Origin: Lactobacillus amylovorus DSM 20531
Lineage (GTDB): Bacteria > Bacillota > Bacilli > Lactobacillales > Lactobacillaceae
Direction of reading: 5' to 3'
DNA length: 64,000 nucleotides
NCBI RefSeq assembly: GCF_002706375.1
Contig: NZ_CP017706.1
Span: 1,178,001-1,242,000, forward strand
Positions 4,419-41,410 of the stretch are shown in pieces; position 1 is the first letter of the stretch, and each line of letters opens with the position of its first letter. A program made the position numbers and the translations under genes. Under the pieces are notes generated by a model. The model did no database searches. It had not been told where the DNA came from and was given only the letters and a program-made list of their open reading frames with translations.

Positions 4419-4433
4419 CTAGGAGTAAGAAAT

Positions 4434-11057: not shown

Positions 11058-11316
11058 AAAAAGCGCCTTACTAGATCATGTCGATCTAATAGGGCGTTTA
11101 TCACGCGGTACCACCTATTCTTTATGGAAGTTCCACCTCGGTTCATGTACGGCCCAAAGGGCGATATATTACCGCAATAGAGGGCGGACCCTGAATCTGC
11201 TAAATATCGCAGGTTCATGCTCGAAGGCCATTTTCAAAAATAAAAACAGACATTTCTTCTCACCAAACTAGAAACTCTCTGTAGAAAGTTTTATTTTTTA
11301 CTTTCCTTGTCATTGC
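11058..11316 (-). promoter_or_regulatory. T-box riboswitch upstream of oppA (specifier read as AUG, Met)
   Basis: On the minus strand the conserved T-box AGGTGGTACCGCG occupies 11104-11116. Stem I features are visible: AGTA opposite the specifier loop, AGAGAG, and GGTGAGAAG. Pairing AAAAATAAAAC with GTTTTTATTTTT sets the helix above the specifier loop. This places GAAAATGG on its 3' side, with ATG at 11229-11231. The terminator stem GCGCCTTACTAGATC/GATCTAATAGGGCG plus T-run ends the leader (11063-11097). The class is certain; the codon is my structural reading. Confidence 0.9.
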
Positions 11317-11389
11317 TTAATTTGTTTTTAATGTTGTTATCATAATATAGCCTAGGAAATAATTTGTCAACAAAAAATTTAAAAAAGGC

Positions 11390-12801: not shown

Positions 12802-12819
12802 AACGATTTGTGACGTCTA

Positions 12820-12888
12820 ATACCTATAGTCCTGAATTTATGGTTCAGGGTAGACACTGTCGAACTTATCTCGACGATATATAGATAT
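12820..12888 (-). promoter_or_regulatory. Purine riboswitch aptamer, guanine class
   Basis: Minus strand: P1 ATATCTATA pairs with TATAGGTAT. P2 is GTCGA/TCGAC with loop GATAAGT, followed by the joining sequence AGTGTCTACC. P3 is CTGAA/TTCAG with loop CCATAAA, followed by GACTAT. The C in GACTAT is the residue that pairs with the ligand, indicating guanine/hypoxanthine rather than adenine recognition. Confidence 0.9.
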
Positions 12889-12975
12889 ATTGATTGTTAA
12901 GTATTCTAGCAGAAATCTAGTAGATAAGCAAATTAGGGTTGGGAGGATATGTATTATAGTTATTTCCTGAGAAAT

Positions 12976-36598: not shown

Positions 36599-36627
36599 TT
36601 GTATACAAATCATGTAGTTGATATAAT
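36599..36627 (+). promoter_or_regulatory. Promoter of the antisense (antitoxin) RNA
   Basis: -35 TTGTAT, 17-bp spacer, extended -10 TGATATAAT. Starts right after the DUF4097-like stop codon. Confidence 0.75.
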
Positions 36628-36633
36628 TAGTAT

Positions 36634-36760
36634 GAAAAAAGAGGCCGACTAAGTCGAACCTCTTTAGTGTAGAATCGCATTAGCGACGACTATTTAAAAA
36701 TATTTTTTAGGTATTAATAAATAACTGCCAGCTTTGCAGAGCTAAAGCAGCTATTTTTTT
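36634..36760 (+). ncRNA. Antitoxin RNA of a type I toxin-antitoxin locus
   Basis: About 127 nt. A strong promoter lies just upstream. The first hairpin (AAAGAGG/CCTCTTT, 36637-36665) is on the other strand the terminator of the toxin mRNA. It ends at AGCTTTGC-aga-GCTAAAGCAGCT followed by a T7 run (36731-36760) that overlaps the toxin stop codon. It is complementary to the toxin 3' UTR, the arrangement of RatA/TxpA and SR4/BsrG. Not tested by expression data. Confidence 0.7.
36637..36665 (-). terminator. Terminator of the toxin mRNA
   Basis: AAAGAGG/CCTCTTT plus inner GACTTAGTC, T6 on the minus strand. Confidence 0.75.
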
Positions 36761-36861
36761 CGCTGATCATGAATTTTGATCAGCTCGACAACCAATATGA
36801 TCAGTAAAACGACAAATGAGCCAAAACTGATCATTAGTTGCAACGCATCTGAGACAGACAC
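36751..36861 (-). CDS. Holin-like type I toxin, 36 aa
   Basis: GTG start with an ideal AGGAG 8 nt upstream. Begins VSVSDALQLMISFGSFVVLL and has a single membrane helix, ending in the charged HDQRKK. This matches the short holin-like toxin family (pattern M-S-x-x-E/D-A-L-x-L-M-I-x-F-G-x-F). The earlier ATG at 36869 sits too close to the RBS and stops after 11 codons. Expected to depolarise the membrane when freed from its antisense RNA. Confidence 0.85.
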   Translation of the reverse strand: MSVSDALQLMISFGSFVVLLIILVVELIKIHDQRKK

Positions 36862-36990
36862 GATGGCATCTCCTTTCTAACAGGATTGTGGCAGAGTCAA
36901 AAAATCCTCATAAGCACCATCTCCTTGGGATAGCCGCCGCTTCAACTTTTCTACGCATAAAATTATACTGATTCGTATTTGCGTCTACAA
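36862..36990 (-). promoter_or_regulatory. Toxin promoter and structured leader
   Basis: Minus strand -35 TTGTAG, 17-bp spacer, -10 TATAAT (36962-36967), start near 36955. The about 90-nt leader holds a decoy AAGGAGATGGTG and GGATT/AATCC complementarity that could hide the real ribosome site, typical for type I toxins. Confidence 0.65.
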
Positions 36991-37030: not shown

Positions 37031-38200
37031 CTACATAAATTCAGTATCTTGCTTACTCTTTTTGATAAAGTGATTTAAGATAAATGGTGAAATTACGGTC
37101 GTTACAATGATTACTAAAATTAAGCTAGAGTAAATATCTTCAGGGAATAGGTGATGCGTAATCCCGATCTGCGCCACGATCAACGCAACTTCACCACGTG
37201 ACACCATTCCGGCACCTACAATATTGCCTTCATTCTTACTGAAACCGAATACTTCACTAGAGTATTTACCAGCCCAGAACTTGGATAAAACGGCGAAAAC
37301 GGTCATCGCAATGATGAACCAGATGTCTTTGAAGAAGCTGGCAAAGGTCATTGAAAGGCCGATATCAGCGAAGAAAACAGGGATGAAGATTGAATAACCG
37401 ATTGCTGAAACAGAAGACTGAACTTCTTTATGTTGCGGTGTTTGACGAATTGCCAAACCACCGAAGAATGCACCTACAACGGCGGATAAACCAACAAAGT
37501 CTGCAGCCCATGCCATTGTCAATGCTAAAACCAATGAACCGATGACTACAGAGTAATCAACAGAAATCTTTTCTGAGACCTTCATGAAGTATGGCGCAAT
37601 AAACTTAAAGATCACCCAAACAACGACGAAGTAGACAATTTCGATCAAGATGTTAAGGAAGAAATTGTTAGTTAAGCCGCTTTTACCGCCTTCATGGCTG
37701 AAGGTGGTGAAGAGACTTAAAACTACCACGGCTAGGATATCATCAACCACAGCGGCCCCTAAAATGGCTGTACCAGCACGTGTATGAAGCTGGTTAGCTT
37801 CTTGCAAAACCACAACTGAGATAGAAACACTGGTTGCCGCAAAAACAATCCCAATAAAGAGTGCCTCAAGTGGCTTCATGCCGAAGAAGTAACTTGCTAG
37901 CCCCATGAAAACAACTGGCAAGATAACGCCAACGCTAGCTACCGTAAAACTCAACTTGAAGTATTTCTTTAACAAGTCCAAGTCACTTTCAAGACCGGCC
38001 AAAAACATTAATAGAATGACCCCAAATTCAGAGAATAAGCTGATTATGTCGTTGGTGTGAATCCAGTTTAAGATAGCTGGTCCTAATAAAATCCCTGAAA
38101 GCAATTGTCCAATAACTGCTGGCAAGTTAAAACGTGCAAATAATTGCCCGAGCAATACCGTAGTCAGTAGGATTAAAATTAATTCCCCTAAGAAATGCAT
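37031..38200 (-). CDS. CPA2-family cation:proton antiporter
   Basis: 389 aa, 12-13 helices. Begins with the Kef/NapA-type ILLTTVLLGQLFARFNLPAV and has GVILLMFLAGLESDLD and AAVVDDILAVVVLS (the DD pair of the ion site). There is no TrkA-N domain. Family role: Na+(K+)/H+ exchange in pH and salt homeostasis. RBS in AGAGGAC. Confidence 0.88.
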   Translation of the reverse strand: MHFLGELILILLTTVLLGQLFARFNLPAVIGQLLSGILLGPAILNWIHTNDIISLFSEFGVILLMFLAGLESDLDLLKKYFKLSFTVASVGVILPVVFMGLASYFFGMKPLEALFIGIVFAATSVSISVVVLQEANQLHTRAGTAILGAAVVDDILAVVVLSLFTTFSHEGGKSGLTNNFFLNILIEIVYFVVVWVIFKFIAPYFMKVSEKISVDYSVVIGSLVLALTMAWAADFVGLSAVVGAFFGGLAIRQTPQHKEVQSSVSAIGYSIFIPVFFADIGLSMTFASFFKDIWFIIAMTVFAVLSKFWAGKYSSEVFGFSKNEGNIVGAGMVSRGEVALIVAQIGITHHLFPEDIYSSLILVIIVTTVISPFILNHFIKKSKQDTEFM

Positions 38201-38225: not shown

Positions 38226-38277
38226 AAAAAACTTTCAAGCGCTTCTTGACCCAAAGAAGCAAATCTTGAAAGTTTTT
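38226..38277 (-). terminator. Terminator of the metal ATPase gene
   Basis: AAAACTTTCAAG/CTTGAAAGTTTT with inner GCTTCTT/AAGAAGC. Confidence 0.8.
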
Positions 38278-38354
38278 ATTTTGTGTAAAAAACCAACCAC
38301 TAAATAAATATTCAGTTGAGTTTAATCTTAATATTTTTTTTAGTCCGATGCAAA

Positions 38355-40352: not shown

Positions 40353-40823
40353 TTATTTAATTTTTTCAGATTTATAGTGCTTATCATATGTGTGAACGAC
40401 ATAGTTGAAGGCCTTGATCCATTCACGTCTGGTGAGGAGACCTTGAAAGACGCCGCGATCATCTACGACGGGCAGGAAGGCATTGTTAATCAGTAAATGC
40501 AGCTGCGTTTCAAGCGTAGTTTCAACAAAATTTATTTTATCGAAATCCGTTTGCATTACGTCTTTAACTTTTAAAGTATCAAGTGGCGCGGTAGAAATTG
40601 CGTCATTGGTTAGCATTTTGTCCGTAATCATGGCCAAGCTGAGTAAACCAACTACTCTTTTATCTTTATCTAAAACTGGAATTTTGGAATATTTAACTTT
40701 AGTCAGAATTAAAAATGCGTGATAGAGTGGGTTGTCTTCTTGAACAAAGGCAATACGACTAGCGGGAATTAAGAATGATCCCGATTTTTCTTCAATTAAA
40801 TGTTGGATCGATGGTGAAAACAT
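40353..40823 (-). CDS. Two-CBS-domain protein, CbpB-like
   Basis: 156 aa consisting of two CBS motifs (about 15-75 and 85-145: ILTKVKYSKIPVLDKDKRVV…LLSLAMI and INNAFLPVVDDRGV…FQGLLT). Size and layout match CbpB/DarB, the c-di-AMP-binding stand-alone CBS protein of Firmicutes that signals to Rel and potassium control; ligand inferred from family. Its promoter follows directly on the terminator of the nearby sRNA candidate on the same strand. Confidence 0.8.
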   Translation of the reverse strand: MFSPSIQHLIEEKSGSFLIPASRIAFVQEDNPLYHAFLILTKVKYSKIPVLDKDKRVVGLLSLAMITDKMLTNDAISTAPLDTLKVKDVMQTDFDKINFVETTLETQLHLLINNAFLPVVDDRGVFQGLLTRREWIKAFNYVVHTYDKHYKSEKIK

Positions 40824-40856
40824 GATACGCCTCTTTTCTGACTAAAATTATACTAG

Positions 40857-40978
40857 AAAAAAGGAAAAGGCCCGCAAAATTTTGCGGACCTTATTAGTTT
40901 CATCTACTTTGGAGGAGTAAGAATGAATGAAATAAAAAAGTGGGAGTATTGTAGCAAGTTTCTACCGCCTTGCTACGA
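40857..40978 (-). ncRNA. Candidate anti-Shine-Dalgarno small RNA, unit 1
   Basis: Minus strand. TATATA (40981-40986) could serve as -10. A 5' hairpin GTAGCAAG/CTTGCTAC is followed by an unstructured CU-rich stretch containing CATTCTTACTCCTCC, the exact complement of an SD-plus-start-codon. The terminator CCGCAAAATTTTGCGG then ends in TTTTCCTTTTTT. About 120 nt. A second, diverged copy follows at 41076-41238. Confidence 0.6.
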
Positions 40979-40997
40979 TTTATATAGTACAGAGTAA
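40923..40997 (+). CDS. Possible 24-aa ORF opposite sRNA unit 1
   Basis: GGAGGAG followed by ATGAATGAAATAAAA and 24 sense codons. It looks translatable, but the paired copy at 41184 has only eight codons and no shared peptide sequence. The RBS-ATG appearance is better explained as the complement of an antisense RNA. Confidence 0.2.
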   Translation: MNEIKKWEYCSKFLPPCYDLYSTE

Positions 40998-41075
40998 ATG
41001 TGAATTAAAAATGTTCAAATTGTTATGAAAAGGTAAAGATTTGTTTGAGAACTAGTTAAGAAGAAAATTTGGGCA

Positions 41076-41238
41076 TAAGAAAAGCCCACGCAACGCACGT
41101 GAGCCGAAAGGGATAGATATGAAATTGACTAATTGGAGTAAGTCAATTCTTTTTATTTTCATTATTTACTTGGAGGAGTATGAATGAAAAACAAAAAAGT
41201 TGAGTTGTAATGGGAAGATGTTTTCTTCCTCACTACAT
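41076..41238 (-). ncRNA. Candidate anti-Shine-Dalgarno small RNA, unit 2
   Basis: Minus strand -10 TATACT (41242-41247). 5' hairpin between 41206 and 41235 (GTA..GAAG/CTTC..TAC, the same place as in unit 1 with different bases), then CATTCATACTCCTCCAAG. An extra hairpin AAATTGACT/AGTCAATT follows, whose loop exposes TACTCCAAT. The terminator is CACGtgcgttgCGTG with TTTTCTT. About 160 nt. Conserved design with changed sequence in the stems supports an RNA function. Confidence 0.6.
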
Positions 41239-41410
41239 TAAGTAGTATAACCTGAAATTGTGAAAAAAGTGTGACGAAATGCACTTTATTTTCAAAAAAG
41301 GCTATATTTTTGCTAAAAAGCCCGAGTTTATGCACTTATAAAGAAAAATAAATTTTTTTGGTTATAATGTAAGACATGATAAAAACGGAAAATAGAAGGG
41401 TGTAGTTTTT

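Follow-up and report, generated by a model that had tools for sequence, protein, structure and literature searches.

The 64,000-nucleotide stretch of Lactobacillus amylovorus DSM 20531 analysed here (the window) carries two tandem RNA genes on the minus strand at 40858–41275, each formed by a promoter, a 5′ hairpin, an antisense core and a terminator. These are probably trans-acting small RNA genes of a single family, driven by a response regulator and blocking translation starts. A tandem minus-strand pair sharing one plan had been proposed from the sequence alone (the original prediction), and folding confirms it: predicted energies of −33 kcal/mol (copy 1) and −44 kcal/mol (copy 2) correspond to z-scores of −5.0 and −7.0, equalled by 0 of 200 shuffles for either copy. 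The two cores lie 261 bp apart and not about 215 bp as first estimated. A Lactobacillus kitasatonis contig matches the window at 97.1% identity over 5.9 kb.

Copy 2 is the upstream unit of the series and copy 1 the downstream one; all features below are on the minus strand. The copy 2 promoter (41243–41275) has GTCACA at 41275–41270, N5, TTCACA at 41264–41259 and, after 9 bp, a −10 element TATACT at 41249–41244. It is followed by a 5′ hairpin (41206–41237; predicted fold and compensatory changes), a second hairpin with an apical CCUCC loop and the anti-AUG on its 5′ arm (41150–41197; fold and shuffled-arm test), a third hairpin (41122–41149; fold and alignment) and an intrinsic terminator (41077–41106; fold and terminator prediction). 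The third hairpin is extra to copy 2, as foreseen, but the TACTCC loop claimed for it (UUACUCCAAU) recurs in just 5 of 21 sequences. The copy 1 promoter (40984–41015) has a degenerate first half-site, AACATT, then N5, TTCACA at 41004–40999, 9 bp and a −10 element TACTAT at 40989–40984. Its 5′ hairpin (40951–40976; predicted fold and compensatory changes) precedes a weak second hairpin with a CCUCCAA loop (40898–40927; about −4 kcal/mol by folding) and an intrinsic terminator with a T-run (40858–40892; fold and terminator prediction). Three terminator-like sites occur at the locus, two of them nested, against 0.2 in shuffles, giving one terminator per copy. The neighbouring gene outside the RNAs (40353–40823, minus strand) encodes a CBS-domain protein, assigned by NCBIfam to CbpB, a c-di-AMP-binding protein.

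Both cores read CATTC(T/A)TACTCCTCC, and pattern matching places them at 41172–41186 in copy 2 (CATTCATACTCCTCC, antisense of GGAGGAGTATGAATG) and at 40911–40925 in copy 1 (CATTCTTACTCCTCC, antisense of GGAGGAGTAAGAATG). The proposal that they are antisense to a Shine–Dalgarno (SD) sequence plus start codon holds for both: the core is complementary to GGAGGAGTA(A/T)GAATG, a well-spaced SD and ATG, and the antisense block runs on into the complement of AAAA-rich codons. No other site in the window matches the core at up to two mismatches (shuffle mean 0.20; 1 of 100 shuffles reaches two or more). Genome-wide, exact matches to CATTCNTACTCCTCC are confined to the two cores, with one site at one mismatch and 17 at two.

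For comparison, 74 sites were cut from 39 stretches of relatives and five set aside as non-family (L062, L084–L087), leaving 69 copies: 23 of copy 2 type, 25 of copy 1 type, 20 of type B (from other species) and one in none of these. Some loci hold two to four copies in series. The antisense block is the most conserved part of the RNA, with mean pairwise identities of 0.974, 0.977 and 0.992 in the three copy types, while the 5′ hairpin shows 0.731, 0.437 and 0.603, respectively. Pairing in this hairpin is maintained despite base differences, as originally noted: two-sided changes affect 3 of 8 pairs in the copy 1 type, 11 of 11 in the copy 2 type and 3 of 9 in type B. Column shuffles of the whole structures (copy 1 and copy 2 types) never reach the observed pairing values (0 of 500), a result that relatedness alone could yield, but sliding the partners lowers the paired cells from 95–98% to 33–50%. 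A covarying hairpin beside a fixed block indicates that the structure is selected and that the block is held in some other way, most simply by its targets.

The CU-rich stretch that contains the core had been described as unpaired; folding instead predicts a hairpin with a CCUCC loop, stable in copy 2 and weak in copy 1. Its pairs hardly vary within the genus and show no two-sided change there, so that they carry no information either way on pairing. When the 3′ arm is shuffled, p < 0.05 is reached in 10 of 36 distinct sequence windows from Lactobacillus, Lapidilactobacillus and Holzapfeliella and in 8 of 28 from other genera, with medians of about 0.10; these corrected arms replace a version whose arms reached into the terminator (15 of 49). 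Across genera the arms differ and yet pair (ATTCTG/CAGAAT, CTTGTTCA/TGGACAAG, CTTGTCCA/TGGGCAAG and TTTTCACT/AGTGAAAA), with visible compensations in L268, L287, L289, L298 and L282. The core thus likely sits in a second hairpin with a CCUCC loop, for which these tests offer modest support.

Could the plus strand be the functional one, encoding small peptides behind the ideal ribosome-binding site GGAGGAGTAAGAATG? A perfect SD and ATG do precede short open reading frames (for example, MNEIKKWEY or MKIKSWMLMLIA), and their first residues are alike within each copy type, but it is the antisense block that dictates these few residues. Conservation of such peptides, which the original prediction had named as evidence against an RNA, was checked and found in neither length nor frame: across the 69 copies reading-frame length varies between 3 and at least 47 codons (in four cases the frame continues beyond the extracted sequence), and indels in the T-run shift the frame. 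Promoter repeat, covarying hairpins and terminators all indicate the minus strand, and we regard a plus-strand peptide as highly improbable.

Relatives of the two RNAs are widespread (in the counts that follow, family stands for Lactobacillaceae and order for Lactobacillales). A pattern search finds the core at up to one mismatch in 53 of 60 relatives; an extended core at up to three mismatches occurs in 58 of 61 genus genomes, including all 49 of good quality, and the reversed pattern gives 7 matches overall. Some of the extended-core matches are gene starts and not RNA genes. A scan of named genome contigs returned 95 stretches, possibly omitting records near the window's own genome. The 26 inspected include carriers in L. 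delbrueckii, L. equicursoris, L. jensenii, seven Lapidilactobacillus species and Holzapfeliella floricola, among others, and seven stretches from other organisms that are not member-like. All eight of the Lapidilactobacillus and Holzapfeliella species carry the promoter repeat GTCA(C/A)A-N5-TTCACA. A contig named Faecalicatena absiana (L104, 2755–3045) bears two copies near-identical to those of L. delbrueckii, which probably reflects mislabelling or a mixed assembly.

In neither of the alignments A1 and A5 did RNAalifold detect a shared base pair, and the two search models are therefore sequence-only: R1 describes promoter and core, and R2 is a broader model. R1 matches 116 of the 251 family genomes, spread over 22 of 38 genera, and R2 (E ≤ 0.01) matches 191 of the 295 order genomes, spread over 57 of 72 genera, with up to 10 matches per genome; both counts take in some gene starts, such as the third matches of G012 and G027. 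The window copies, both in the R1 training set, score E values of 5.6e-22 and 6.5e-22, and both have the features that define the RNA family (promoter repeat, 5′ hairpin, CTCCTCC-type core and downstream terminator). Among mostly top-scoring matches, CTCCTCC is present in 21 of 23 from other genera of the family and 25 of 30 from other families; the remaining inspected top matches have a shorter or C-richer core, and promoter repeat and terminator are visible in nearly all of those inspected. Of 22 lower-scoring R2 matches inspected, the 15 from families f5 and f7 appear to be true members, three in three genomes of genus g4 are not member-like, and four in genus g8 have at most the promoter repeat in common (two of the four).

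Beyond Lactobacillaceae, the RNAs occur on named sequences from Vagococcus fluvialis (plasmids) and Enterococcus faecalis (a replicon). On the small V. fluvialis plasmids, members lie beside HTH and replication genes (L385, 4384–4498; L386, 1362–1476); a plasmid search returned matches of only E 0.4 for a piece of the window and none for a piece from another genus of the family. Five stretches from another family of the order (L367, L370, L371, L379 and L383) have in common an additional linker resembling GCATACCAACAAAACAACCCTAAC, and four near-identical tandem copies are present in L367. Scanning the window and 44 loci of relatives with Rfam 15 at gathering score gave no match to these RNAs; sub-threshold MicC and GcvB matches at 40854–40988 are at chance level and were rejected. 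The accessible text of the open-licence literature, including PMC3091779, PMC4132741, PMC3166299 and PMC5593968, gives the family no name. This is apparently a large RNA family, spread across many lactic acid bacteria and so far without a name.

The genomic neighbourhood bears on whether the elements instead act in cis, as leaders or attenuators, on the cbpB gene that follows on the same strand (and on a P-type ATPase gene). Within Lactobacillus, 23 of 25 copy 1-type (C1) and 11 of 20 type B copies are directly followed on the same strand by cbpB, which lies 100–190 nt from the last RNA copy among the cases listed, and 33 of 35 stretches (of 2–8 kb) combine an RNA with cbpB or the ATPase gene. 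Given this linkage, some read-through into cbpB may occur. However, every copy closes with its own terminator, two to four can stand in series, and four type B copies have a different next gene, three of these on the opposite strand. Beyond the genus the association is lost: cbpB and ATPase genes are both missing from 7 of 7 Lapidilactobacillus stretches and 20 of 20 from other genera of the family, and cbpB is found in 0 of 23 order-level stretches (all 2–8 kb). A leader function is accordingly an unlikely account of the pair, and we retain that of independent small RNA genes.

Several other elements were seen near the locus or elsewhere in the window. In most Lactobacillus stretches cbpB, the P-type ATPase gene, dlt-like genes and the RNA stay together. 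A 36-residue Pfam Hol_Tox peptide (36754–36861, minus strand) lies under an Rfam rli28 match (36795–36978, minus strand), and the other strand carries a RatA-like match that scores below threshold (36624–36709, plus strand); judged by sequence, peptide and RatA-like match likely form a type I toxin–antitoxin pair. A Na+ riboswitch aptamer (38241–38298, minus strand) stands directly 5′ of a gene that by eye resembles a sodium/proton antiporter (37031–38200), and the riboswitch recurs in two type B stretches (L059 and L071). Rfam also identifies a T-box leader (11087–11322, minus strand) and a purine riboswitch (12807–12904, minus strand).

The promoters carry an OmpR-type repeat, GTCACA-N5-TTCACA, placed 9 bp before the −10 element. 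TTCAYA-N9-TANNNT is present in 75 of 87 aligned copies and the first half-site as well in 49; copy 1 promoters have a degenerate version of this half-site, and the repeat is missing from five copies of type B. Neither RNA promoter gives a sigma-70-type match, as expected of activator-dependent promoters. The promoter pattern matches 47 of 61 genus genomes (reversed pattern, 2 matches), and 14 of 62 rows fall away from RNA loci, including before Spx-like and small-peptide genes. In four stretches (L233, L234, L231 and L232) the repeat is 5′ of an Spx-like gene, in two genomes resembling the bee-associated clade, or of a gene for a 35-residue peptide, in the L. johnsonii group. Promoter searches in 20 family genomes (20 stretches) uncovered more RNAs with C-rich hairpin loops, a few other genes and, in two of the genomes, htrA. 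Two of these stretches (L304 and L306) combine the same repeat with a series of several hairpins that each show, by eye, a CTCC-type loop, and are likely RNA genes that are multi-headed relatives.

Upstream of htrA the repeat is found in 21 of 23 genomes, that of the window included (at least 13 of 15 positions, p ≤ 0.02 against mononucleotide shuffles), and in 19 of 21 without the two genomes that prompted the test (G322 and G150). These regions were scored in 23 of 24 genomes, G283 being left out for a split match; as a control, regions upstream of a LisR-like regulator were scored in the same way, and 1 of 30 reached this level. The sequence ahead of htrA in the window's own genome is TTCATA-N5-TTCAAA-N9-TATGAT. 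From this shared repeat, it seems that the RNAs may be switched on together with the stress protease gene htrA.

Which regulator this would be was pursued through the seven OmpR-type regulator genes of the genome, which by eye include WalR, PhoP and a LisR-like protein. None has the motif upstream at p ≤ 0.05, and autoregulation as a route to naming the regulator was dropped on this account; across genomes the motif precedes LisR-like genes in 0 or 1 of 30 cases, depending on settings. The LisR-like regulator has a counterpart at 65–81% identity in 19 of 20 other RNA-carrying genomes (50% in G380), and the three genomes of genus g4 have no such relative above 42%. It is also present in 11 of 12 family genomes that gave no R2 match, and so its presence does not single it out.

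The simplest function suggested by the core is repression of translation initiation through pairing. In the mechanism that we propose, a response regulator of the OmpR class would bind GTCACA-N5-TTCACA beside the −10 element and activate both RNAs and htrA, probably in an envelope-stress response. The second hairpin of each RNA would expose CCUCC in its loop; this loop would contact the SD of a target mRNA, after which the hairpin would open and its invariant 5′ arm would pair onward with the spacer, the AUG and the A-rich coding start, thereby blocking the ribosome start. The A-rich extension would suit mRNAs whose coding region opens with a Lys-rich signal peptide. A different role, in which the RNAs act mainly as CU-rich sponges for a protein and not on mRNAs, would fit the CU-rich loops and the several UCCC motifs read from the sequence of each RNA, but a plain CU-rich protein site would not need a core that complements SD, spacer and AUG jointly, and we consider it unlikely.

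Where targets are concerned, the closest start site in the genome (one mismatch) belongs to a gene that by eye is glutamine-amidotransferase-like and not secreted. Four of 14 near-complementary gene starts, hand-picked among the matches listed, look secreted by eye (L062, L219, L224 and L228); the best near-complementary start among those, that of a L. johnsonii gene, matches over 21 uninterrupted nucleotides (G012:C31:75247–75267). A preference for secreted proteins may be taken as a lead only. The Flp-like regulator mRNA had been suggested as a target within the window: AGGAGTAAGAA is indeed present at 4421–4431, but its ATG is two bases too far away (AGGAGTAAGAAATATG), and it was rejected, ranking 11th of 56 window start sites by duplex energy.

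If the pairing model is right, a large group of food, gut and vaginal bacteria have in common a regulatory RNA family unrecognised by the Rfam 15 scans, htrA is tied to translation-blocking RNAs, as it is by CiaR in streptococci, and the tuning of exported proteins by lactobacilli under envelope stress becomes directly testable. More tentatively, and with somewhat less than even confidence, a single response regulator might activate htrA together with one to ten hairpin-displayed anti-SD RNAs that silence exported-protein mRNAs under envelope stress, throughout the Lactobacillales outside Streptococcus. If true, this would be a Gram-positive counterpart of the porin-repressing small RNAs of enterobacteria, replaced in streptococci by CiaR and the csRNAs.

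Rfam 15 has an LhrC family, and the RNAs at the scanned loci give no Rfam match. As far as the available account of the Listeria LhrC RNAs goes, the two groups have in common multiple copies, CU-rich motifs (UCCC in LhrC) that bind upstream of the start codon and, here by inference, control by an envelope-stress two-component system (LisRK in Listeria); the LisR-responsive positions of lhrC5 (−53 to −75) lie farther upstream than the promoter repeat described here (PMC4132741). The same source, in the part accessible, lists RsaE, FsrA, RNAIII and SprD as Gram-positive small RNAs whose C-rich motif meets the SD (PMC4132741); these have that motif in common with the RNAs in this study, whose complementarity reaches through the AUG, and no common sequence family was found with them.

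A close parallel is with the streptococcal csRNAs, as described in the accessible part of PMC3091779. Both groups have several small RNAs per genome with anti-SD and anti-AUG sequences and a terminator, and promoters with a hexamer-N5-hexamer repeat just 5′ of the −10 element. The repeat is GTCACA/TTCACA at 9 bp here, whereas csRNAs have the CiaR repeat NTTAAG-N5-TTTAAG at 10 bp (PMC3091779), and the anti-SD lies in a predicted hairpin loop here but, with the anti-AUG, in an unpaired linker between two stem-loops there (PMC3091779). That account reports no CiaH homologue in Lactobacillus (PMC3091779). In Streptococcus pneumoniae, htrA is under the same regulator as the csRNAs (CiaRH; PMC3091779), as the repeat at htrA parallels here, and csRNA9 resides on the small plasmid pST0 (PMC3091779), as members here do on Vagococcus plasmids. 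The likeness to csRNAs drawn in the original prediction thus stands for the anti-SD and anti-AUG design but not for membership, since the CiaR repeat is missing; by analogy, the best reading is that these RNAs would function like streptococcal csRNAs.
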